From: Ruminococcus sp.
GTDB lineage: Bacteria > Bacillota > Clostridia > Oscillospirales > Ruminococcaceae
NCBI GenBank assembly: GCA_015066705.1
Contig: SVNV01000001.1
Coordinates: forward strand, 1-64,000
Reading direction: 5' to 3'
Length of the DNA stretch: 64,000 nt
In this document: positions 26,985 to 37,076 of the stretch, in pieces
Numbering within the stretch: position 1 is the stretch's first letter
How the letters are laid out: every line of letters starts with the position of its first letter
Made by a program: the position numbers and the translations under genes
Notes under the pieces: generated by a model
Seen by the model: the letters and a program-made list of their open reading frames with translations, nothing else
What the model was told of the DNA's origin: nothing
The model's database searches: none

Positions 26985-27106
26985 AATGCACAATAATCAC
27001 GAACATCACATATTAATTATATATCATTTTAACATAAATTACAAGTGTCTGTTTAAATATTTTTATCGTGATTATTAACAAATTATTTAATAGTTACTTG
27101 TGCATT
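26985..27106. repeat. Nested inverted repeats around the EF-G-like promoter
   Basis: AATGCACAA then TAATCACGA (26985-27002, contiguous) are mirrored downstream by TCGTGATTATT (27066-27076) and, 21 nt further, TTGTGCATT (27098-27106). The EF-G-like promoter lies inside. Function unknown. Confidence 0.5.
27016..27044 (-). promoter_or_regulatory. Promoter of the EF-G-like gene
   Basis: TTGTAA (27044-27039), 17 nt and TATAAT (27021-27016) on the minus strand. Confidence 0.7.
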
Positions 27107-27130
27107 ACAGATAAAGGCAAGCCTATGTCC

Positions 27131-27159
27131 TTGAAAAATCCCACGAAACATGATATACT
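27131..27159 (+). promoter_or_regulatory. Promoter of the 88-residue protein gene
   Basis: TTGAAA (27131-27136), 17 nt and TATACT (27154-27159); about 28 nt before the ATG. Confidence 0.75.
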
Positions 27160-27187
27160 TATGTAAAATATGACGAGGAGATTTAAA

Positions 27188-27454
27188 ATGGCTGAGAGTA
27201 TTTTTGACATACCGGGTTTTACATTTTTTGCTGAAAAAAACAATTTTTCAGGAAGCGCGTTAAAAACCTTCAACTATAAAATCTGGTACGGTGAGCAGTT
27301 TACAGTCAAGGTATGGTACGGGGTAAACTGTTACAGCTGTACTGATGAAAGCGAAATAGTTGCCGAGATGACTGCAGAATTCATTCCTGAGAGTCTCAAG
27401 GAAATCAAAGTCTGGCTGGAAGGTCAGCTTGAAATTTTCAAAAACAAAAACTAA
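27188..27454 (+). CDS. Small unknown protein
   Basis: An 88-residue soluble protein of no family I recognise, rich in aromatic residues: it begins MAESIFDIPGFTFF and has alternating WYGEQFTVKVWYG and a predicted helix at the C-terminus (SLKEIKVWLEGQLEIF). GAGGAG is 6 nt before the chosen ATG at 27188; an earlier ATG (27170) overlaps that site. It has its own promoter and terminator, so it is a real gene. Confidence 0.65.
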   Translation: MAESIFDIPGFTFFAEKNNFSGSALKTFNYKIWYGEQFTVKVWYGVNCYSCTDESEIVAEMTAEFIPESLKEIKVWLEGQLEIFKNKN

Positions 27455-27459
27455 CAAAA

Positions 27460-27484
27460 AAGTCTGAGAAAAACTCTCAGACTT
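27460..27484. terminator. Bidirectional terminator closing the ECF operon and the 88-residue gene
   Basis: AAGTCTGAGA arm, 5-nt loop and matching arm, with A/T tracts on both sides. Confidence 0.88.
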
Positions 27485-27776
27485 CTTTTTTATCCACATA
27501 TCGTTCAACTCGCATACGGAGTTTATATTTTTCACGCAAAGCTGCAATTTCTTTCATCATATCAGTTTTATGGTGAAAGTCTATTGCTTCCTCGTCTCGC
27601 CATCGGTCAATAAGCAAAACTGTTTCTTCGTCATCAAGCGGGAAGAAATATTCATAACGCTCGTTTCCTTCTTCGTTACGGATTTTTTCAACAAGTCCCG
27701 AAGAAACCATTTCCTCAACGAATTTTCTTGCGTTTCCATTTTTTCCTGAATAATAAATATTAACTGTTATACTCAT
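27477..27776 (-). CDS. Antibiotic biosynthesis monooxygenase (ABM)-fold protein
   Basis: The 99-residue single-domain protein has the ABM/YgiN pattern: ITVNIYYSGKNGNARKFVEEMVSSGLVEKIRNEEGNERYEYFFPLDDEETVLLIDRWRDEEAIDFHHKTDMM, with the typical W-x-D/E and the DFHHKT helix. Members are small heme-, quinol- or aldehyde-related enzymes; the substrate here is unknown. Its ATG overlaps the end of the MATE gene by 17 nt, so it closes the long operon. Confidence 0.85.
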   Translation of the reverse strand: MSITVNIYYSGKNGNARKFVEEMVSSGLVEKIRNEEGNERYEYFFPLDDEETVLLIDRWRDEEAIDFHHKTDMMKEIAALREKYKLRMRVERYVDKKEV

Positions 27777-29127
27777 CAGTATTCTCCTCAAATACAAAAC
27801 CGTGTGGCACCCACATATTTTTAAAATAAAAAACAAGTGAAAGAACAGTTGAAACTGTCCAGCCTATCGGCCATGAAAGCCATATTCCTGTTGAGCTATT
27901 GAGCAAATCAGAAAGCACAAAGCTCAGCACAACTCTTATTATAAGGTCGGTGAAGGTTGCAATCATAAAGGTTTTCATAGCACCTGCTCCACGCAAAACA
28001 CCGTCGCAAAGGAGCTTTATTGAAATCACCATATAAAATGGCGAGGTTATTCTCAAAAAGGTACAGCCTACTTTTATTGCCTCCATACTTTCGTGCTTTT
28101 TCATAAATAGTCCCAAGAAGAATTCAGGAACTGTGAAGAATGCCACAGTAAAAGGTATTACCACGCAGGCACAGATAATAAAGCTTGATTTAAAGCCCTG
28201 CTTTATTCTCGGAAGCTGTTTTGCACCTATATTCTGTGCGGTAAATGATGAAAGAGCATTTCCCAGAGCGGCAAAGGACATTATTCCGAAGGTATTGAGC
28301 TTGATTGCTGCTGAGTAGCCTGCCACTACCGACGAGCCGTAGCCGTTTATAAGGGTCTGAATAAAAAGATTTCCCACAGAAACAAAGCTCTGCTGAAGAA
28401 TACTCGGAACAGTTACCCAGATTATTCTTGAAAAAATTCTGAAATCAAAGATTTTTGGAGTATTTGGACAGTTTATTCTTTTTATTTTAACAAAAACTGT
28501 AATCATCGAAAGTATTGACGCAAGACCCTGTGCAATAAAGGTTGCCCAGCCGACGCCTCTTACTCCCCAACCAAATCCTGCTACAAAAACGAGGTCAAGG
28601 ACGATATTGAGAAGCGACGAGAAAATCAGAAGATAAAGTGGTGTTTTAGAATCGCCTGTCGCTGTGAAAATTCCCGAAGAAACGTTATACATAAACAGCA
28701 ACGGTAGTCCCAATGTATAGATTCCCAGATAAGCAGAGCCGTCGCTGAAAATATTCTTTGGTGTATCGAGAAGTGTAAGCATTCCGTCGCAGAAAACAAG
28801 TCCCGAAACTGCAAGAATTATGCTGAGCACCAGCGACATAATAAGCGAAGTATTGACCGCTGTTTTCATACGGGTAAACTTACCGCTACCATAAAGCTGT
28901 GAAACAATTACCGACGAGCCGATATTACAGCCCACTGCAAATGCCATAAAAATCATAGTTATCGGGTATGATGCCCCGACAGCCGCCAGAGCGTTTTCGC
29001 CTGCAAACTTGCCCGCAATAACGCTGTCGCTTATATTATACAGCTGCTGAAACGCAACGCTTATAAGCAGTGGTATGGAAAATTTCACCAGAGTGGGAGT
29101 AATCTTTCCCTTTGTAAGTTCTACCAT
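27760..29127 (-). CDS. MATE family efflux protein
   Basis: The 455-residue protein has twelve hydrophobic helices in the usual two halves. Recognisable are LVKFSIPLLISVAFQQLYNISDSVIAGKFAGENALAAVGASYPI at the N-terminus and TVPSILQQSFVSVGNLFIQTLINGYGSSVVAGYSAAIKL in the second half. Exchanges a drug or metabolite for Na+ or H+. It starts 12 nt after the ECF S component, which suggests that the exported compound relates to the imported one (inference). Confidence 0.92.
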   Translation of the reverse strand: MVELTKGKITPTLVKFSIPLLISVAFQQLYNISDSVIAGKFAGENALAAVGASYPITMIFMAFAVGCNIGSSVIVSQLYGSGKFTRMKTAVNTSLIMSLVLSIILAVSGLVFCDGMLTLLDTPKNIFSDGSAYLGIYTLGLPLLFMYNVSSGIFTATGDSKTPLYLLIFSSLLNIVLDLVFVAGFGWGVRGVGWATFIAQGLASILSMITVFVKIKRINCPNTPKIFDFRIFSRIIWVTVPSILQQSFVSVGNLFIQTLINGYGSSVVAGYSAAIKLNTFGIMSFAALGNALSSFTAQNIGAKQLPRIKQGFKSSFIICACVVIPFTVAFFTVPEFFLGLFMKKHESMEAIKVGCTFLRITSPFYMVISIKLLCDGVLRGAGAMKTFMIATFTDLIIRVVLSFVLSDLLNSSTGIWLSWPIGWTVSTVLSLVFYFKNMWVPHGFVFEENTDEYNS

Positions 29128-29139
29128 TTTTATTATCCT

Positions 29140-29817
29140 TTACAAAATACCATATTTTTTAACAAGTCTGTCAAGGGTATTCCCAACCGGCTTTGACAAA
29201 ACAAGCAAGAAAATAACATTTGAAACCACATAACACAAGGTTATCGGAAGTGAAGTAAGAATTACTGCAAAATATCGTCTTACATTCAAAGAACCATCCA
29301 TAAAAAGCACCGTCCAGCTATCCATCACAAGTGAATAGAATAGTCCGGCCAATGCACCGTAAAGTGACAGGAGAATTATATTTTTTGAAAGCTTTTTGCT
29401 TAAAAGTCCTGCAAAAAATCCTATAAGTCCCCAAGTCAGCATCTGAAAAGGTGTCCAAGGACCTTGCCCGAAGTAGAAGTTTGAAACAAGCGCTGACATT
29501 GCCCCCGTAACAAAGCCAGCCTGTCCCCCAAGTGAAAGAGCAGTCAGAATAACTATTGCTGAAACAGGTTTAAAAAATGGGATTGGTGCAAAGAGAAATC
29601 TTCCCGTTACTGACACCGCTGTCATTACTGCCACAAGTACAACATAGCTTGTGGTGGTTTTTTTGTTTTCAAAGGTAAAAAAGAACGGCAGACAGCACAA
29701 AACTGCTCCCAGAACACTGGCAAGCAAATAACCTTTACACCACTCGCAAAGCACCGAAAATACGGCGATTATGAGAAGTGCTATCGCCGAAATAGAAGTT
29801 ATGACAGTTTTTTTCAT
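29140..29817 (-). CDS. ECF transporter S component
   Basis: Substrate-binding membrane subunit of an energy-coupling-factor importer, 225 residues with about six helices. A long N-terminal pair of helices precedes the usual core; near the centre is SNFYFGQGPWTPFQMLTWGLIGFFAGLL, typical of one large S-component group. The ligand cannot be read directly. The neighbouring transcobalamin-like proteins suggest a corrinoid, whereas pncB at the head of the operon would suggest a nicotinate-type compound. It starts 15 nt after the ATPase gene. Confidence 0.85.
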   Translation of the reverse strand: MKKTVITSISAIALLIIAVFSVLCEWCKGYLLASVLGAVLCCLPFFFTFENKKTTTSYVVLVAVMTAVSVTGRFLFAPIPFFKPVSAIVILTALSLGGQAGFVTGAMSALVSNFYFGQGPWTPFQMLTWGLIGFFAGLLSKKLSKNIILLSLYGALAGLFYSLVMDSWTVLFMDGSLNVRRYFAVILTSLPITLCYVVSNVIFLLVLSKPVGNTLDRLVKKYGIL

Positions 29818-29832
29818 ATCGCCGTACCTTTC

Positions 29833-31467
29833 TTAGATTTTTTTCAGATTTTCAGTTACCTGTGACACTGTAACAGCATTTTTTATCACATCTTTTGCGA
29901 TGATTGCTGAGGAAGTTGTATAAAAATAATTCTCAGAAAAGAACACCTGAGGCGGTTCTTTACAAATTATCTCACCATCAAAAAGCATAGCACAGCTATG
30001 AGCGGTGGTTGCCGAAAACTCAACATCGTGTGTAACAATCACAAGAGTTTTTCCCTCTTGAGAAAGCTTTTCAAAAATCTCACTGAGTTCTGATTTATAA
30101 AAAGCATCAAGTCCCTTGGTCGGCTCGTCAAGAAGAATAATTTCAGGCTGTGAAATAAGCACACGTCCCAGTGCACACTTCTGGATTTCACCTCCCGAAA
30201 TGTCAAAGGGATGCCTGTCAAGAAGGTGGGATATTCCTAATTTTTCAGAAATCTCGTCAATTATATTCTCGTCTTTTGAATGTGCCTTACAGCTTTCCAA
30301 AAAATCCTCTCGCACTGTTTTATTTGAAAAGACAGTTTTAGGATTCTGAGGTAAAAATCCTATGATTCCTCTGTAAAGGGAATTACCTTTATAGTCTGCA
30401 ATCGCCCTATTATAGAGCTTTACGTCGCCGTGATAGGCTTTTCTTAGCTTTGAGATAACATTTAAAAGAGTGGTCTTTCCACTACCGTTTGAGCCGTGAA
30501 TTGCAAGAATTTCACTCTTTTTAACTGACAAATTCACGCCTCTGAGCACGTCCTCGCCATTCTTTTCGTAGCGAAACCAAACATCCTCAAGGTTAATCAC
30601 ATCATCATTATCATTGCGGTGGTTGTCTATTTCGCAGGTTGATTTATTATAGCCGTCGAGAATGATTTTTCTTCCCTCTCTTATATTAAGAGGCAGGCTT
30701 TCAGCAGAAAATTCCTCACCAAAAATCCTTGTAGCAGAAGGCAGAGCGACTTTCATATCGCTTTTAAGGATTTCCACACACGCTTTTCGTGGCGTGTCGT
30801 CACAAGCAAGTCTTCCATCATCAAGAAAAAGCACCCTGTCGGACATCGAAAAACATCTCTCAAGGTTATGCTCGGAAAGGATTACTGTTATTCCAAGCTG
30901 GCGGTTGATTTTTTCAAGAAGGTTGAAAAAGCTGTCGGTCGCCACGGGGTCAAGCTGTGATGTAGGCTCATCGAGAATGATGACATCGGGATTCATAGCA
31001 ATTATTGACGCCAGACTCACAAGCTGTTTTTCTCCGCCTGAAAGCTGGTTTGTATTCTTATTCACCCATTCCTCGATTCCGAAAAAAGCAGAGATTTCAG
31101 CTATTCTCCGCTTGATTTCAAAAGGTGATTTACCCATATTTTCAAGTCCGAATGCAAGCTCTTTTTTTACAGTATCGCAGACTATCTGCGTTTCGGGATT
31201 TTGCATAACGTAGCCGATTTTTGCGGCTGTGACGGCATTTTCGATATCGTAAAGGTTTTCACCTTTATAGAAAATTCCGCCTGTTTTGTCACCCTTTGGT
31301 GTAAGCTGTGGCTTGAGCATTTTCAAGAGTGTAGTTTTTGAGCTTCCGCTCTTACCACAAAGGGTTACAAACTCACCATCGTTGACACAAAAGCTCACAT
31401 TGTCAAGCACCTTTTGCTTGCTGTCAGGGTAAGCAAAGCTTAAATTTTCGACACGAAATATTTCCAT
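29833..31467 (-). CDS. ECF transporter ATPase, A and A' fused
   Basis: A single 544-residue chain carries both ATPase domains. Domain 1: Walker A is CGKSGSSKTTL, in which the Gly before the catalytic Lys is Ser (confirmed by the codons), then Q-loop VMQNPETQI, LSGGEKQLVSLA and ILDEPTSQLD. Domain 2 (from about residue 300): canonical GSNGSGKTTL, FLPQNPKTVF, ISGGEIQKCALG and LLDEPTKGLD. It overlaps the end of the T component by 28 nt. GGAG precedes the ATG by 8 nt. Function: powers import by the S and T subunits. Confidence 0.93.
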   Translation of the reverse strand: MEIFRVENLSFAYPDSKQKVLDNVSFCVNDGEFVTLCGKSGSSKTTLLKMLKPQLTPKGDKTGGIFYKGENLYDIENAVTAAKIGYVMQNPETQIVCDTVKKELAFGLENMGKSPFEIKRRIAEISAFFGIEEWVNKNTNQLSGGEKQLVSLASIIAMNPDVIILDEPTSQLDPVATDSFFNLLEKINRQLGITVILSEHNLERCFSMSDRVLFLDDGRLACDDTPRKACVEILKSDMKVALPSATRIFGEEFSAESLPLNIREGRKIILDGYNKSTCEIDNHRNDNDDVINLEDVWFRYEKNGEDVLRGVNLSVKKSEILAIHGSNGSGKTTLLNVISKLRKAYHGDVKLYNRAIADYKGNSLYRGIIGFLPQNPKTVFSNKTVREDFLESCKAHSKDENIIDEISEKLGISHLLDRHPFDISGGEIQKCALGRVLISQPEIILLDEPTKGLDAFYKSELSEIFEKLSQEGKTLVIVTHDVEFSATTAHSCAMLFDGEIICKEPPQVFFSENYFYTTSSAIIAKDVIKNAVTVSQVTENLKKI

Positions 31468-32321
31468 CTTAAACTCTCCGTTATTTCAATAATCACAGGC
31501 AAAAAGCACAGTACAAAATAGCCTGCATATGCTGTCACGCTACTCACTTCAAGGGTGATTTTAGTAACCGTCGGATAAAACTCAAAAGCTGTAGCTCCAT
31601 TTATCATAAAAATTATTTCCATTATTGTTACAGCAACTGTAAAACACAACAGCACCAAATCATAAAATGTGAATTTCACAGTTTCAAAGCTTGTACGTCC
31701 CTTTTCACCGTAGCCTCTGGCATTCATTGAAGCTGAGGTTTCGATACTGTTTTCAGCCGACTGGGCAACAGTAGAGGACATAGTTTTAAGTTTCAGAAAA
31801 AGTCTTTCAAAGTAGCTTTCTGTTGAATAAATCCCAAGTGTTTTATGGGCTTTTTCTGTTTCCTTATAGGATTTTTTCAGGCGTGGAACAAAATTCAGAG
31901 CCATTGAAAACACCAGTGCAAGCTTTGGCGAGATTTTTGCGAAAAGAAAATAGAATTTATCAGAAGTCATAACTCTGGTCATACAGGAAAACCACAAAAC
32001 CGTTGCAATAATCATCAATGCGATTGAAGCACCGCATATTATCGCTTCCAATGTAACGGGGTTTCCGTTCATAAAGAAAAGAGGTGTTTTTCCGTTATGT
32101 ACAAAAAGCGGATTTGTTACAGCTACAAGGGCAAAAAGCGTTATAAAATACAAAAGCTGTGATAAAAATCCCCTGCCCTTTGAAAGCCACACAGCATAAG
32201 CGGTTGCACCAAGAAGTGATATCAGCTGTAAAACAGGATTGTTACAAAACATAGAAACACCGATTACCGCCAGAAAATACACAAGCATTGTAAAAGGGTG
32301 TGTCTTTAAAAACCTGTTCAT
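31440..32321 (-). CDS. ecfT: ECF transporter T component
   Basis: The 293-residue membrane coupling subunit has four to five helices in the first 110 residues, then the cytoplasmic coupling helices with the Ala-Arg-Gly coupling motif seen as MNARGYGEKGRTSFE near residue 210, and a final helical pair. AAAGGAG lies 7 nt before the ATG. It starts 15 nt after the DUF4430 gene. Confidence 0.9.
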   Translation of the reverse strand: MNRFLKTHPFTMLVYFLAVIGVSMFCNNPVLQLISLLGATAYAVWLSKGRGFLSQLLYFITLFALVAVTNPLFVHNGKTPLFFMNGNPVTLEAIICGASIALMIIATVLWFSCMTRVMTSDKFYFLFAKISPKLALVFSMALNFVPRLKKSYKETEKAHKTLGIYSTESYFERLFLKLKTMSSTVAQSAENSIETSASMNARGYGEKGRTSFETVKFTFYDLVLLCFTVAVTIMEIIFMINGATAFEFYPTVTKITLEVSSVTAYAGYFVLCFLPVIIEITESLRWKYFVSKI

Positions 32322-32336
32322 AGCTAAGCTCCTTTC

Positions 32337-32849
32337 TTATAAATCCTTTCCGGCTTCAAGGGAATAAACCCATTCAACCTTATCGCCGTCTTTTAATTTA
32401 TACTTTCCGCAGGACAGGTCGGTCTGTTTTCCGTTTACAAGAAAAACCCAACCGGAAAGCTCACCGCAGTCAAACTCATACAGATAATTTAATCCCTGAA
32501 CATAAACGCTGTTATAGATATTTTTATCAGCGCCCTGATATTCCATATGGATTTTTTCAAAACGACATACTCTTTTAAGTACATCAAAAACTGTTTCATC
32601 TTCAATGAGAACATACTCTTTTTGTTTGAGAATTTCTCCGTTATTCAATTCTTTAAGCTGTGCGTCTGAAAGTTTACCGCTTGAAAGAGCTTTTTCGCAG
32701 TTTATGGAAAAATAAACCCTGTCGCTATCCTCAGTTATTTCGTCGGCGTGGGTGAGATAATACTCCTCCACCGACTGAAATTCTGTTCCCATAATCAGCA
32801 CAGCCGACAAAAGAATTATAAAAAACAACATAAGGAAATCCTTTTTCAC
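32337..32849 (-). CDS. Membrane-anchored DUF4430 protein, transcobalamin C-terminal-like
   Basis: The 170-residue protein has an uncleaved-looking signal anchor (residues 6-22, no Ala-x-Ala), so it is held on the outer face. Residues about 75-168 match the DUF4430 pattern: ETVFDVLKRV, YVQGLNYLYEF, SGWVFLVNG and LKDGDKVEWVY. DUF4430 corresponds to the C-terminal beta domain of transcobalamin and intrinsic factor, which covers the bound cobalamin. The start is GTG, with AAGGAGG 7 nt upstream. It sits between the barrel protein and EcfT. Confidence 0.88.
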   Translation of the reverse strand: MKKDFLMLFFIILLSAVLIMGTEFQSVEEYYLTHADEITEDSDRVYFSINCEKALSSGKLSDAQLKELNNGEILKQKEYVLIEDETVFDVLKRVCRFEKIHMEYQGADKNIYNSVYVQGLNYLYEFDCGELSGWVFLVNGKQTDLSCGKYKLKDGDKVEWVYSLEAGKDL

Positions 32850-32867
32850 GGCTATGCCTCCTTTTTA

Positions 32868-34262
32868 TTACATATCCTGTTCTCTTTGTTTTCTTCTTTT
32901 AGAACGAAAGTACGTCAAACAACCAACCAGACAAATAAAAACAATATTGAAAATCATATCTCTCCTTAAAAGAGAATCCATCTCAGCATCTAATTTCAAA
33001 AGCTCATCGTATTCAGTAACAAGCTTCATATCTTCTTCAGAAAGGTCTTCACACTTATCAAAAAGCTCTTCTATGGTTTCCCTATGTGATACTTTCAGAC
33101 CTTTTCGTGAAATTTTTGAAATTTCAACATTTATAGAATCAATTCTACGTTTGATGTAATAAGCTTCAGAAAGTGCATTATTAAGTACATCTTTAAGTTC
33201 AGTTGCGTCGTCGGGGTTTATCTCCTCAACAGTCTGCAAAAGTCTTTTTATTGTAGGGACATCTACCGCATTTACATTTTCAGAAAAACCTTGTATACGT
33301 TCTCTGTCGTATTGGGAAACCTCATTTTTAATTATTGTTTCTACTTCAGAAAAATCATATACATAGCGATTTTTATTTACAGCACCCAGTGCAAGAATCG
33401 CCTGCTGTGTCGCCAGATAACTGGTTTCTCCGTCAGCAAGGTGAGAAAAGCCGTCCTGAGTTTTAAAAGAAAAGACATTCTCTGCAATTCCCTCTGTATC
33501 CTCGCCCACAGCATAAAATGCTACAAGAGCCTGACAAGCACTTTCGCAGTTTTTAACGCCATAGCTTTCAAAACCACTATCAGGGAGCTTTTTACTTTTT
33601 AAAAATGAAACTGCTCTGTCAACAGCCTCAGAAACCTTTTCATCATCTTTATACGGTGCAAGTGCGGTAATAACATTAGCAGTAACATCAACATCGCCAA
33701 CATCTCCGCTCAGTGCAAATCCACCATCATAAAGCTGATACAAAAGTATTTCATCTATTATGTTTTCCTTGGTGTTAAGTGCATCCGAAGGGGTTTTATA
33801 ATCATCTGCCGACAAGCAGATAAGTGCCCAGATATACGCATTTATCCCCTGTTTATCAAGGTCAAAATTATAAATACCGTCAGCTATAAGATTTATTCCG
33901 TTGAAATTTTCAGCATTTCCTCCACAAGCCTCAACAGCAAGGGCTATTCTATGCCATTCGGTAGCCTTTACTTTATGAAGTCTGTTTTCTGTTTCGTATT
34001 TTTCACTGACATATACAGTAAGTGCATCAAGGTATTTTTCATACTCGGCATCAATATTATTGATTCTCAGTGCAATTACATACCAGTCGCTTGACGTTGT
34101 ACCGACATTTTTCAGAAAATCATCGTCAAACAGAATTTTCCCGTTTTCATTCTGAAAAAGTCCGTTTAATGTTGTATTTACGATGTTTTCCTCAGCTGAT
34201 ACACACAGACACCCGACAGCAAGCATTACTGTTGCAACAAAAGCTGAAATAATTCTTTTCAT
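32868..34262 (-). CDS. Surface alpha-barrel protein (prenyltransferase/transcobalamin-like)
   Basis: The 464-residue protein has a signal peptide ending CVSA-EE and a C-terminal anchor (MIFNIVFICLVGCLTYF, then KRRKQR), so it is exposed outside. Residues about 45-330 are repeated alpha pairs with ALAVEACGG, AYIWALICLS, QLYDGGFALSGDVGDVDVTANVITALAPY and SGFESYGVKNCESACQALVAFYAVG, the pattern of the alpha6/alpha6 barrel of squalene cyclases and of the N-terminal domain of transcobalamin and intrinsic factor. A helical stalk follows. With the adjacent DUF4430 gene it makes up both halves of the B12-carrier architecture on separate chains (inference). Its ATG overlaps the pncB stop as TAATG. Confidence 0.75.
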   Translation of the reverse strand: MKRIISAFVATVMLAVGCLCVSAEENIVNTTLNGLFQNENGKILFDDDFLKNVGTTSSDWYVIALRINNIDAEYEKYLDALTVYVSEKYETENRLHKVKATEWHRIALAVEACGGNAENFNGINLIADGIYNFDLDKQGINAYIWALICLSADDYKTPSDALNTKENIIDEILLYQLYDGGFALSGDVGDVDVTANVITALAPYKDDEKVSEAVDRAVSFLKSKKLPDSGFESYGVKNCESACQALVAFYAVGEDTEGIAENVFSFKTQDGFSHLADGETSYLATQQAILALGAVNKNRYVYDFSEVETIIKNEVSQYDRERIQGFSENVNAVDVPTIKRLLQTVEEINPDDATELKDVLNNALSEAYYIKRRIDSINVEISKISRKGLKVSHRETIEELFDKCEDLSEEDMKLVTEYDELLKLDAEMDSLLRRDMIFNIVFICLVGCLTYFRSKRRKQREQDM

Positions 34263-35695
34263 TACTTTTTATGTTCCTCTAACATTTTATTTTTAAGCTC
34301 CCACAGCTTTTCAGAAAGGTCAACATAATAGCTATGTGGGTTTTCAAATCTCTTTACCTCGTCCCAGAGAGTTTCAATCTGGTTAAGGCAGTATTCTCTT
34401 ACTTCGTTGATTGGCGGGCATTCATAAACCTGTTCACCATTTATGAAAATTGGTTTTAAAAGTTCTTTAGCTGTAAAATCCGTAATAGTCTTAGATTTCC
34501 ATACATTATACTGGTCAAAGATTTTAAGAGGCTTTGTATCGTCGATTGTTTCGTCGTGAATACAAATCTGGTCTGCAATCGCCTTTCCTGTATTATTATC
34601 AAAAAGTCTGTAAACCTTTTTGAAATGTGGGTTTGTAATCTTACCGATATTCTCGCTGATTTTGATTTTAGGAATGATTTCTCCGTCCTTTTCAACAGCA
34701 ACCAGCTTATAAACCCCGCCAAAAACAGGATTACTCTTTGCAGTTATGAGTCTTTCGCCCACGCCAAAGGTATCAATTTTTGCACCCTGAAGCATAAGGT
34801 CACGGATAATATATTCATCAAGAGAATTTGACGCTGTTATTTTACAGCAGGAAAGTCCTGCATCGTCAAGCATTTTTCTTGCCTTTTTAGAAAGGTATGA
34901 AATATCCCCTGAGTCAAGTCTTACAGCAAAATTTGTAATTCCCTTTGGAAGTAAAATCTCCTTAAACACCTTGATAGCGTTTGGAATACCACTTCCAAGT
35001 GTGTCGTAGGTATCAACAAGAAGTGTTGTACTTTCAGGATAGATTTCGCAGTAGGTTTTAAATGCCTCGTATTCGCTGTCAAACATCTGCACCCACGAAT
35101 GAGCCATTGTGCCACCGGCAGGAACATCATAAAGCTTGTCTGTGAGTGTGCAGGCTGTTCCGTGACAGCCACCGATATACGCTGCTCTTGCACCGATAAC
35201 CGCACCGTCAGCACCCTGCGCACGTCTTGAGCCAAATTCCAGAACAGTTCTTCCCTGTGCAGCTCTCACAATTCGGTTTGCCTTTGTTGCAATAAGCGAC
35301 TGGTGGTTTACGCAAAGGAGAAGAAAAGTTTCGATAAGCTGGGCTTCAATAGCCTTTGCCTTAACTGTAATAACAGGTTCATAAGGGAAAATAGGTGTTC
35401 CCTCAGGGACAGCATAAATATCTCCTGTAAACTTAAAATCAGCAAGATACTTTAAAAATTCCTCTTCAAAAATGCCTTTTTTACGCAAAAAATCTATATC
35501 TTCATCGGAGAATTTAAGATTTTTAATATAGTCGCAAAGCTGTTCAAGGCCTGCAAAAACAGCAAAGCCTCCCTCGTCAGGGACTTTTCTGAAAAACATA
35601 TCAAAGTATGTTGTTTTTTCAGAAAATCCGTTTTTAAGGTATCCGTTTGACATTGTAAGCTCATAAAAATCGCAGAGAAGTGAATAGTTTTTCAT
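34262..35695 (-). CDS. pncB: Nicotinate phosphoribosyltransferase
   Basis: Makes nicotinate mononucleotide from nicotinate and PRPP (NAD salvage). The 477-residue protein begins MKNYSLLCDFYELTMSNGYL, has LLVNHQSLIATKANRIVRAAQG, the phosphohistidine region and EFGSRRAQGADGAVIGARAAYIGGCHGT, then RLDSGDI, and a long C-terminal domain. GGAGG is 7 nt before the ATG 35695. As first gene of the ECF operon it may be there for NAD salvage or because nicotinate mononucleotide is also the substrate for cobalamin lower-ligand activation; the sequence cannot decide. Confidence 0.95.
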   Translation of the reverse strand: MKNYSLLCDFYELTMSNGYLKNGFSEKTTYFDMFFRKVPDEGGFAVFAGLEQLCDYIKNLKFSDEDIDFLRKKGIFEEEFLKYLADFKFTGDIYAVPEGTPIFPYEPVITVKAKAIEAQLIETFLLLCVNHQSLIATKANRIVRAAQGRTVLEFGSRRAQGADGAVIGARAAYIGGCHGTACTLTDKLYDVPAGGTMAHSWVQMFDSEYEAFKTYCEIYPESTTLLVDTYDTLGSGIPNAIKVFKEILLPKGITNFAVRLDSGDISYLSKKARKMLDDAGLSCCKITASNSLDEYIIRDLMLQGAKIDTFGVGERLITAKSNPVFGGVYKLVAVEKDGEIIPKIKISENIGKITNPHFKKVYRLFDNNTGKAIADQICIHDETIDDTKPLKIFDQYNVWKSKTITDFTAKELLKPIFINGEQVYECPPINEVREYCLNQIETLWDEVKRFENPHSYYVDLSEKLWELKNKMLEEHKK

Positions 35696-35732
35696 ATAAA
35701 AACCTCCAAAACCACAAAATAACTCAATATAT

Positions 35733-35761
35733 ATTGTACCACAAAAATCGCTGTAATGCAA
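35733..35761 (-). promoter_or_regulatory. Promoter of the pncB-ECF operon
   Basis: TTGCAT (35761-35756), 17 nt and TACAAT (35738-35733) on the minus strand. The leader is only about 30 nt, so there is no room for a cobalamin riboswitch. Confidence 0.7.
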
Positions 35762-35766
35762 TAAAA

Positions 35767-35794
35767 AAGAGGAAAACCCAAAAGTTTTCCTCTT
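35767..35794 (-). terminator. obg terminator
   Basis: An 11-bp stem (AAGAGGAAAAC) and minus-strand T6 tract, the latter touching the -35 of the pncB promoter. Confidence 0.85.
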
Positions 35795-35798
35795 AATA

Positions 35799-37076
35799 TT
35801 AAAACACAAATTCAAATTCAAAATCAAGAATTGATACCGTGTCTCCCTCTTCGATACCCATTTCAACAAGCTTATCAATAATACCTGTATTTCTAAGCAC
35901 TCTCTGGAAATACTGAAGGCTTTCGTAGTCCTCCATATTAACGCTTCTGAGGACATCCCACAGCCAGTCAGCGTCAACAAAGTAAACGCCTTCCTCAACA
36001 GTAACCTCAAAGCTTCTGTCTGAAAGGATTTTTTCGTCAATTTCAGCCTGTGAATATGGCTGTGCCTCAAATCTCTTTACAGGTGGAAGGTCAGCAAGTG
36101 CTCTGCCCACTGCAAGAGCAAGCTCCTTTGTTCCCTGAGTTGTAGCTGCTGAAATTTCAAAGAAAGGAAGTCCCTTATCCTCGATATATTTTCTCAGCTC
36201 CGAAAGCTGTTCTTCTGTAGCCATATCGCATTTATTAGCTGCAACTATCATAGGCGCACAAGCAAGCTCCTCGCTGAAATTAGCAAGCTCCTTATTGATA
36301 ATTTCAAAGTCGTCAATCGGATTTCTCCCCTCGATACCTGACGCATCAACAACGTGAACAATAAGTCGGCATCTTTCAACGTGTCTTAAAAACTCGTGTC
36401 CAAGTCCCACACCGTCGCTTGCACCCTCGATAAGTCCCGGAATATCAGCCATAACATAAGACTTTTCTGCGTCAACCTTAACAACTCCCAAAACAGGAGT
36501 AAGGGTTGTAAAGTGGTAGTTTGCAATCTTTGGTTTTGCTGCAGAAACTACTGAAATAAGTGTAGATTTACCTACATTCGGAAATCCCACAAGTCCCACG
36601 TCAGCGATAAGCTTAAGTTCAAGAACAAGGTTGAATTCCTCGCCCTTAAATCCCGGTTTTGCAAACTTAGGAATCTGTCTTGTAGGAGTTGCAAAATGGG
36701 CATTTCCCCTACCGCCCTTACCGCCATGAGCAATAATTACAGGTTCGTAGTCCGAAAGGTCAGCAAGAATTCTCCCTGTTTCGGCTTCTCTTACAACAGT
36801 TCCCTTAGGAACCTTTACCACAAGGTCGTCAGCGCCTCGTCCAGATGAATTATTTGAATAACCGTTCTGTCCCTTTTCAGCAACGTATTTTCTCTTATAT
36901 CTGAAGTCAATGAGGTTTGACATATTATCGTCAACCACAAAAACAACGTCTCCGCCCTTACCGCCGTCACCGCCGTCAGGTCCGCCGGAAGCTACATATT
37001 TTTCTCTATGAAAGGAAACTGCACCATCACCGCCGTCGCCAGCTTTTACATATATTTTCGCTTCATCAACAAACAT
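35799..37076 (-). CDS. obg: Obg/CgtA GTPase
   Basis: Ribosome-associated GTPase of stress and ribosome assembly. The 425-residue protein has the glycine-rich Obg domain (MFVDEAKIYVKAGDGGDG; GGPDGGDGGKGGDVVF), a GTPase domain with GFPNVGKSTL near residue 165, DIPGLIEGA and NKCD, and a C-terminal OCT domain (from about residue 345), as in Gram-positive homologs. GGGAGGAG precedes the ATG. It lies 94 nt after the L27 gene, separated by a terminator. Confidence 0.97.
   Translation of the reverse strand: MFVDEAKIYVKAGDGGDGAVSFHREKYVASGGPDGGDGGKGGDVVFVVDDNMSNLIDFRYKRKYVAEKGQNGYSNNSSGRGADDLVVKVPKGTVVREAETGRILADLSDYEPVIIAHGGKGGRGNAHFATPTRQIPKFAKPGFKGEEFNLVLELKLIADVGLVGFPNVGKSTLISVVSAAKPKIANYHFTTLTPVLGVVKVDAEKSYVMADIPGLIEGASDGVGLGHEFLRHVERCRLIVHVVDASGIEGRNPIDDFEIINKELANFSEELACAPMIVAANKCDMATEEQLSELRKYIEDKGLPFFEISAATTQGTKELALAVGRALADLPPVKRFEAQPYSQAEIDEKILSDRSFEVTVEEGVYFVDADWLWDVLRSVNMEDYESLQYFQRVLRNTGIIDKLVEMGIEEGDTVSILDFEFEFVF

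Follow-up and report, generated by a model that had tools for sequence, protein, structure and literature searches.

What does an operon import when the genes for a predicted exported alpha-barrel and for a DUF4430 protein stand directly ahead of those for an energy-coupling factor (ECF) transporter? Such an operon lies in a 64,000-nucleotide stretch of DNA from Ruminococcus sp. (assembly GCA_015066705.1, contig SVNV01000001.1, positions 1 to 64,000; hereafter the window), where eight minus-strand genes are packed so tightly that neighbours overlap or lie no more than 18 nt apart. It likely encodes a machine for the capture and import of corrinoids (vitamin B12-type compounds); we are less sure that the two surface chains make up a single clamp. 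In the arrangement that we propose, the barrel and DUF4430 proteins, each predicted to be membrane-anchored, would close over one corrinoid in the manner of transcobalamin's two domains and would pass it to a CbrT-like S component, and EcfT together with the fused EcfA-A' ATPases would then drive import with ATP. A DUF4430-like surface protein, encoded at an unlinked site behind a riboswitch, would serve as an outer collector, and PncB, the MATE-family exporter and the ABM-fold protein are likely lineage-specific passengers. Corrinoid binding, closure of the two chains and hand-over to the S component are the steps that we infer. The first-pass annotation of this DNA had suggested a transcobalamin-like protein split over two genes of an ECF importer operon, and this prediction is supported by the CbrT-type S component, by one-chain fusions of the two domains, by cobalamin-class riboswitches and by the fold of a fused homologue.

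Searched as a single sequence against the PDB, the window S component has one match at E ≤ 1, 6fnp_A (E 9.3e-9), and a profile of 20 relatives retrieves the same chain at E 3.1e-20, with 4hzu_S next (2.4e-5). Entry 6FNP is ECF-CbrT, for which ATP-driven uptake of cobalamin and cobinamide has been reported and which had been placed in an E. coli btuF btuC metE deletion strain (PMC5997447). On sequence similarity the window protein is a CbrT-type S component, the substrate of which would be a corrinoid. Four further S components in the genome exceed the PF12822 cut-off, so that it is not the sole vitamin S component there. The operon also encodes EcfT and two ATPases, the other parts of an ECF-CbrT importer. 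ECF-CbrT of Lactobacillus delbrueckii (PMC5997447) likewise combines a homologous S component with EcfT and two ATPases; unlike it, the window system keeps its ECF module in the same operon, joins A and A' in one chain and includes surface proteins. In some relatives, at L038, L041, L045, L046, L049, L061, L062, L079, L085, L088, L107 and L108, EcfA-A' and S share one open frame of about 800–1000 residues, the ATPases being apparently fused to their substrate-binding subunit.

The model of the window barrel protein, made from a 66-sequence alignment (pLDDT 94.4), shows barrel helices at about residues 25–310 and, beyond them, a stalk of helices plus a long helix at the C-terminus, and displays the N-terminal alpha/alpha toroid of a transcobalamin-type binder. 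A C-terminal membrane anchor is predicted at about residues 431–454, with a basic tail. The neighbouring protein scores 57.4 bits against the DUF4430 family PF14478 (cut-off 23.8 bits), matches a profile built from the DUF4430 part of fused homologues at E 3.4e-46, and is hydrophobic at residues 1–27. Animal TCN proteins carry DUF4430 as their C-terminal part (PMC4350170). When a homologue carrying both domains in one chain was modelled and searched with Foldseek, the 15 best matches were transcobalamin, intrinsic factor or haptocorrin, the predicted fold matching both domains of these animal carriers; the model (P0019) aligns to transcobalamin over 16–526 with an rmsd of about 5 Å. Sequence searches gave no link between the barrel and transcobalamin, which is visible by fold comparison alone. 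Unlike the animal carriers, the window proteins are two chains, are predicted to be membrane-anchored and have no sequence-level match to them, and whereas the carriers use an endocytic receptor, the window system is encoded with an ABC-type importer. The fused model also matches PDB 3u7z from Ruminococcus gnavus, deposited as a putative metal binder, probably through its DUF4430 part; this protein may be a corrinoid-capture piece.

Fused relatives suggest how the two window chains could correspond to one. At least two non-overlapping hydrophobic segments separate barrel and DUF4430 in 75 of 76 fused proteins (exactly two in 72). The P0019 model shows them as helices 356–377 and 380–395, a link that looks like a two-helix membrane hairpin. 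Because the window barrel protein ends, and the DUF4430 protein starts, with a hydrophobic segment, the window gene break falls between the two; a break within the hairpin would let each domain keep its outside position and one membrane helix. On an EcfT tree, the split or fused label changes at least seven times, six of these changes being forced by starred branches, and none of 500 shuffles was as low (a quick method, with SH-aLRT as the sole support measure; removal of near-identical rows left 104 of 108, of which 94 carry a label). As judged from these sequences, barrel and DUF4430 proteins are one evolutionary unit whose split and fused states interconverted repeatedly, in a direction that the tree does not give.

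The core of barrel, DUF4430, EcfT, EcfAA' and S is kept in many relatives. Across 197 genomes (the window's own and relatives), a barrel match was found in 71, an S match in 80 and a DUF4430 match in 119, and 53 of the 71 barrel genomes are among the 65 with a strong S match (E ≤ 1e-20; Fisher p 6e-21, kinship not corrected). Two sets of loci were fetched, partly from the same genomes: 40 barrel loci, taken from the best barrel matches rather than from all, many of them ending at contig edges, and 80 named loci, the top-ranking ones among at least 577 confirmed, retrieved with a pattern from the DUF4430 portion of the fused alignment. A gene scored as missing is missing from the fetched stretch only. 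Among the 40 barrel loci, EcfT is present in the stretch of 27, and barrel and DUF4430 share one frame in 17. The named loci, which include cultured Ruminococcus flavefaciens strains, show the one-frame form in 68 cases, EcfT in 72 and S in 66; since they were picked by a pattern from the fused alignment, the presence of both domains in all 80 and the share of fusions follow from the choice. Several loci encode further DUF4430 proteins and two or more barrels.

Regulation of the related cassettes points to corrinoids as well. At 20 of the 40 barrel loci the barrel or EcfT gene is preceded, on its own strand, by a cobalamin-class riboswitch, two of them (L040 and L067) through RF01689, against a chance expectation of about 0.3 in the 676 kb of these loci (0.27–0.45 for genomes of 2.5–1.5 Mb; derived from 197 RF00174-only matches under stricter filters that lose weak matches). 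The search took in all 40 barrel loci and 12 of the 80 named loci, and 8 of these 12 are positive, including R. flavefaciens MA2007 and ND2009 (RF01689). At L061, L106, L109 and L154, riboswitch and barrel are separated by a gene for a surface protein that includes a DUF4430-like stretch, and such a gene is there too, behind a larger first gene, at L032, L033, L102 and L103; at L118 and L151 of R. flavefaciens the first gene encodes an anchored surface protein in which the DUF4430 profile finds nothing. Elsewhere, giant barrel-domain proteins of 1149–1998 aa lie directly behind cobalamin riboswitches (L063:1229-7225, L042:8803-12252, L059:9189-12851 and L060:7959-11681), and a second, smaller type of locus (G112:C10, G082:C42 and G128:C26) joins a riboswitch, a stand-alone DUF4430 and a distant S in genomes without a barrel match.

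The window's own genome has a single RF00174 match, at G000:C22:40083-40278, outside the window. Behind it, unlinked to the operon, lies the gene of a DUF4430-like surface protein (L072:9216-10175, minus strand), which matches our DUF4430 profile at E 5e-6 and the Pfam model at E 3.2e-4. Two same-genus genomes repeat this pairing of riboswitch and homologous gene: in G001 (L181) the protein is 60% identical to the window genome's own and the riboswitch match is partial, at a contig edge, and in G003 (L076) the protein is 45% identical to that of G001. The genome, which is 99.8% complete, encodes a MetH-type protein with methyltransferase, pterin-binding and B12-binding domains; CbiC, the FecCD/BtuC permease and the MetE domain have no match in it, control genomes being positive for each.

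A number of observations weigh against this reading. Barrel sequence profiles retrieve terpene cyclases instead of transcobalamin, and the barrel compared alone gives VIA Z values of 21 for cyclases, about 19 for sugar epimerases and 18 for transcobalamin, which this score does not single out. The rmsd of about 5 Å means that the inter-domain geometry of P0019 is only roughly that of a closed clamp, and the two-domain match belongs to the fused homologue only. The Pfam family of the window S component carries a riboflavin name. Of the 71 barrel genomes 18 lack an S match, and a barrel match is missing from 27 of the 80 genomes with S, or from 12 of the 65 in which S matches at E ≤ 1e-20. Half of the barrel loci (20/40) show no cobalamin-class riboswitch, and seven of the 20 positive loci score weakly, at 34.8–50.1 bits (L040, L045, L058, L061, L062, L066 and L067). 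The window operon itself has neither RF00174 nor RF01689 upstream and would stand outside a cobalamin-riboswitch regulon, as first noted from the letters of the sequence: cobalamin-class searches of 27000–36300 at E up to 10 gave no match, which speaks against a hidden riboswitch, and Rfam at gathering thresholds has zero matches anywhere in the window. The genome-wide search took in RF00174 alone among the cobalamin classes, and the unlinked DUF4430-like gene falls below the Pfam cut-off (21.5 against 23.8 bits). Finally, a MATE gene lies 74 nt behind S at L109, so that MATE may not be a pure passenger.

The barrel's affinities invite another explanation, that of an exported enzyme acting on a lipid or terpenoid, with the DUF4430 protein and the importer handling its product. 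Squalene-hopene cyclase and drimenyl-diphosphate synthase are its best matches by sequence and by barrel-only fold, its Pfam matches are to squalene-cyclase/prenyltransferase families only (weak and below cut-off), and the barrel proteins P0015 and P0131 bear the source annotation 'terpene cyclase/mutase family protein', probably a misnomer. DxDD, the catalytic motif of terpene cyclases, is however absent from the window barrel and occurs within residues 21–320 in just one homologue out of 76 and three out of 66; the barrel is predicted to be exported and is fused to DUF4430 in many relatives, and a search with both domains brings up the B12 carriers. We regard an enzyme as the least probable of the alternatives, and a terpene cyclase is disfavoured by the missing motif together with the two-domain match. 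It is also very unlikely that the pair binds heme, a siderophore or another large ring: an ECF importer for heme is known (PMC7299338), but the riboswitch class and the CbrT-type S component, together with a genome that has MetH and no MetE match, point to corrinoids. Nested within the corrinoid reading is a system without a shared clamp, in which the barrel would bind alone and the DUF4430 protein would be a separate docking or relay piece. The separate chains of the window, the extra helical stalk of the barrel protein, and the loci with additional DUF4430 proteins and several barrels would suit it; repeated interconversion of split and fused forms, and the match of the fused form to transcobalamin over two domains, speak for the shared clamp, and we think its absence improbable.

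The gene at the operon head raises a different ligand, since an importer of nicotinate, nicotinamide riboside or some similar pyridine could feed PncB. In the window, pncB and the barrel gene share one base, and the overlapping pair is kept in the same-genus genome G001, its pncB being 96% identical to the window's. G001 also has MATE and ABM after S on another contig, with an S-to-MATE gap of 261 nt and an ABM protein 96% identical, the cassette there lying on pieces of three contigs (C215, C33 and C146); G002 has a different barrel gene with no pncB upstream. Neither pncB nor ABM appears in any of the 40 barrel or 80 named stretches. Their occurrence with the cassette in one same-genus genome only makes nicotinate unlikely, and the cobalamin-class riboswitches of related cassettes and the match of S to CbrT further count against a pyridine, which we consider highly improbable. 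The nicotinate-like ligand that the first-pass annotation had kept in view is thus unsupported. It had also listed pncB and MATE as unexplained partners: pncB is likely a lineage-specific operon head, probably outside the capture system, and MATE and ABM are probably a lineage-specific tail, MATE being present at one barrel locus (L061, about 2 kb ahead of the barrel gene) and, apart from its close position at L109, at none of the other named loci.

The general idea of B12 scavenging by such proteins is not new, having been in print since 2007. Burroughs et al. united the transcobalamin C-terminal domain and its bacterial relatives in one superfamily (SLBB), described toroid fusions, surface anchors and operons with CbiO- and CbiQ-like genes, proposed B12 scavenging, and noted that the host bacteria usually lack key B12 synthesis enzymes and can have paralogous surface SLBB proteins in one operon (PMC1796856). 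Their proteins share with the window a surface or secreted toroid and a DUF4430-type beta-grasp near CbiO/CbiQ-like genes; the available main text does not take up riboswitches, CbrT, energy coupling, a membrane anchor or splitting, which the present analysis adds (PMC1796856). What is new here is the link to riboswitches, the S component of CbrT type, the hairpin and the recurring split and fused states, and the unlinked riboswitch-led partner. The available parts of PMC3766115 and PMC2667541 contain nothing on DUF4430 together with ECF, and open-access PMC text yielded no experiment on this system.

The BtuG and BtuH proteins of Bacteroidetes also capture B12 at the surface ahead of an importer, as we propose for the window system, and are Gram-negative outer-membrane partners with other folds. 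A tentative extension, plausible but somewhat more doubtful than probable, is a three-stage Gram-positive surface relay in which a riboswitch-controlled outer DUF4430 protein would collect, a membrane-tethered transcobalamin-type clamp, its halves repeatedly split and fused, would capture and a dedicated CbrT-type ECF transporter would import. Such a relay would represent the bacterial equivalent of the intrinsic factor/transcobalamin system of animals, and might be its source, here with its stages spread over two loci of which the outer one alone is B12-regulated. A riboswitch-linked clamp with its own importer would correct database entries named terpene cyclase or DUF4430, and would provide a bacterial model of a fold whose animal versions have been proposed to be bacterial-derived (PMC1796856).

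Table 1. Genes and signals of the window operon.
Feature	Position	Strand	Basis
pncB, nicotinate phosphoribosyltransferase	34262..35695	-	NAPRTase family; NF006695 equivalog, 724 bits
Barrel protein, alpha/alpha-toroid, predicted exported	32868..34262	-	fold model; weak sub-cut-off Pfam matches
DUF4430 protein (transcobalamin C-terminal-like beta-grasp), N-terminal hydrophobic anchor	32337..32849	-	PF14478 E 2.1e-15
EcfT transmembrane coupling subunit	31440..32321	-	CbiQ PF02361 E 3e-6
Fused EcfA-A' ATPases, one chain	29833..31467	-	PF00005 (ABC_tran), two stretches, E 1.9e-59
CbrT-like S component (predicted substrate-binding membrane subunit)	29140..29817	-	ECF-ribofla_trS E 2e-14; 6fnp_A match
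MATE-family exporter	27760..29127	-	MatE E 6.9e-62
ABM-fold protein	about 27477..27776	-	PF03992 E 2.3e-15
Likely operon promoter	35733..35761	-	TTGCAT, 17 nt, TACAAT; TG precedes -10
Operon terminator	27456..27488	-	15-pair stem, then T tail

The layout first read from the sequence is confirmed for the eight packed genes and their domains by the family matches and junctions (Table 1). The proteins P0181 and P0190 are listed with PF00395 (SLH). A promoter at the claimed site is likely, with its two hexamers and the TG in place, but of fair quality only, being absent from the sites of a consensus scan with a cut-off of 9/12 matches. The terminator that had been claimed for the operon is present and strong, a stem followed by T's.

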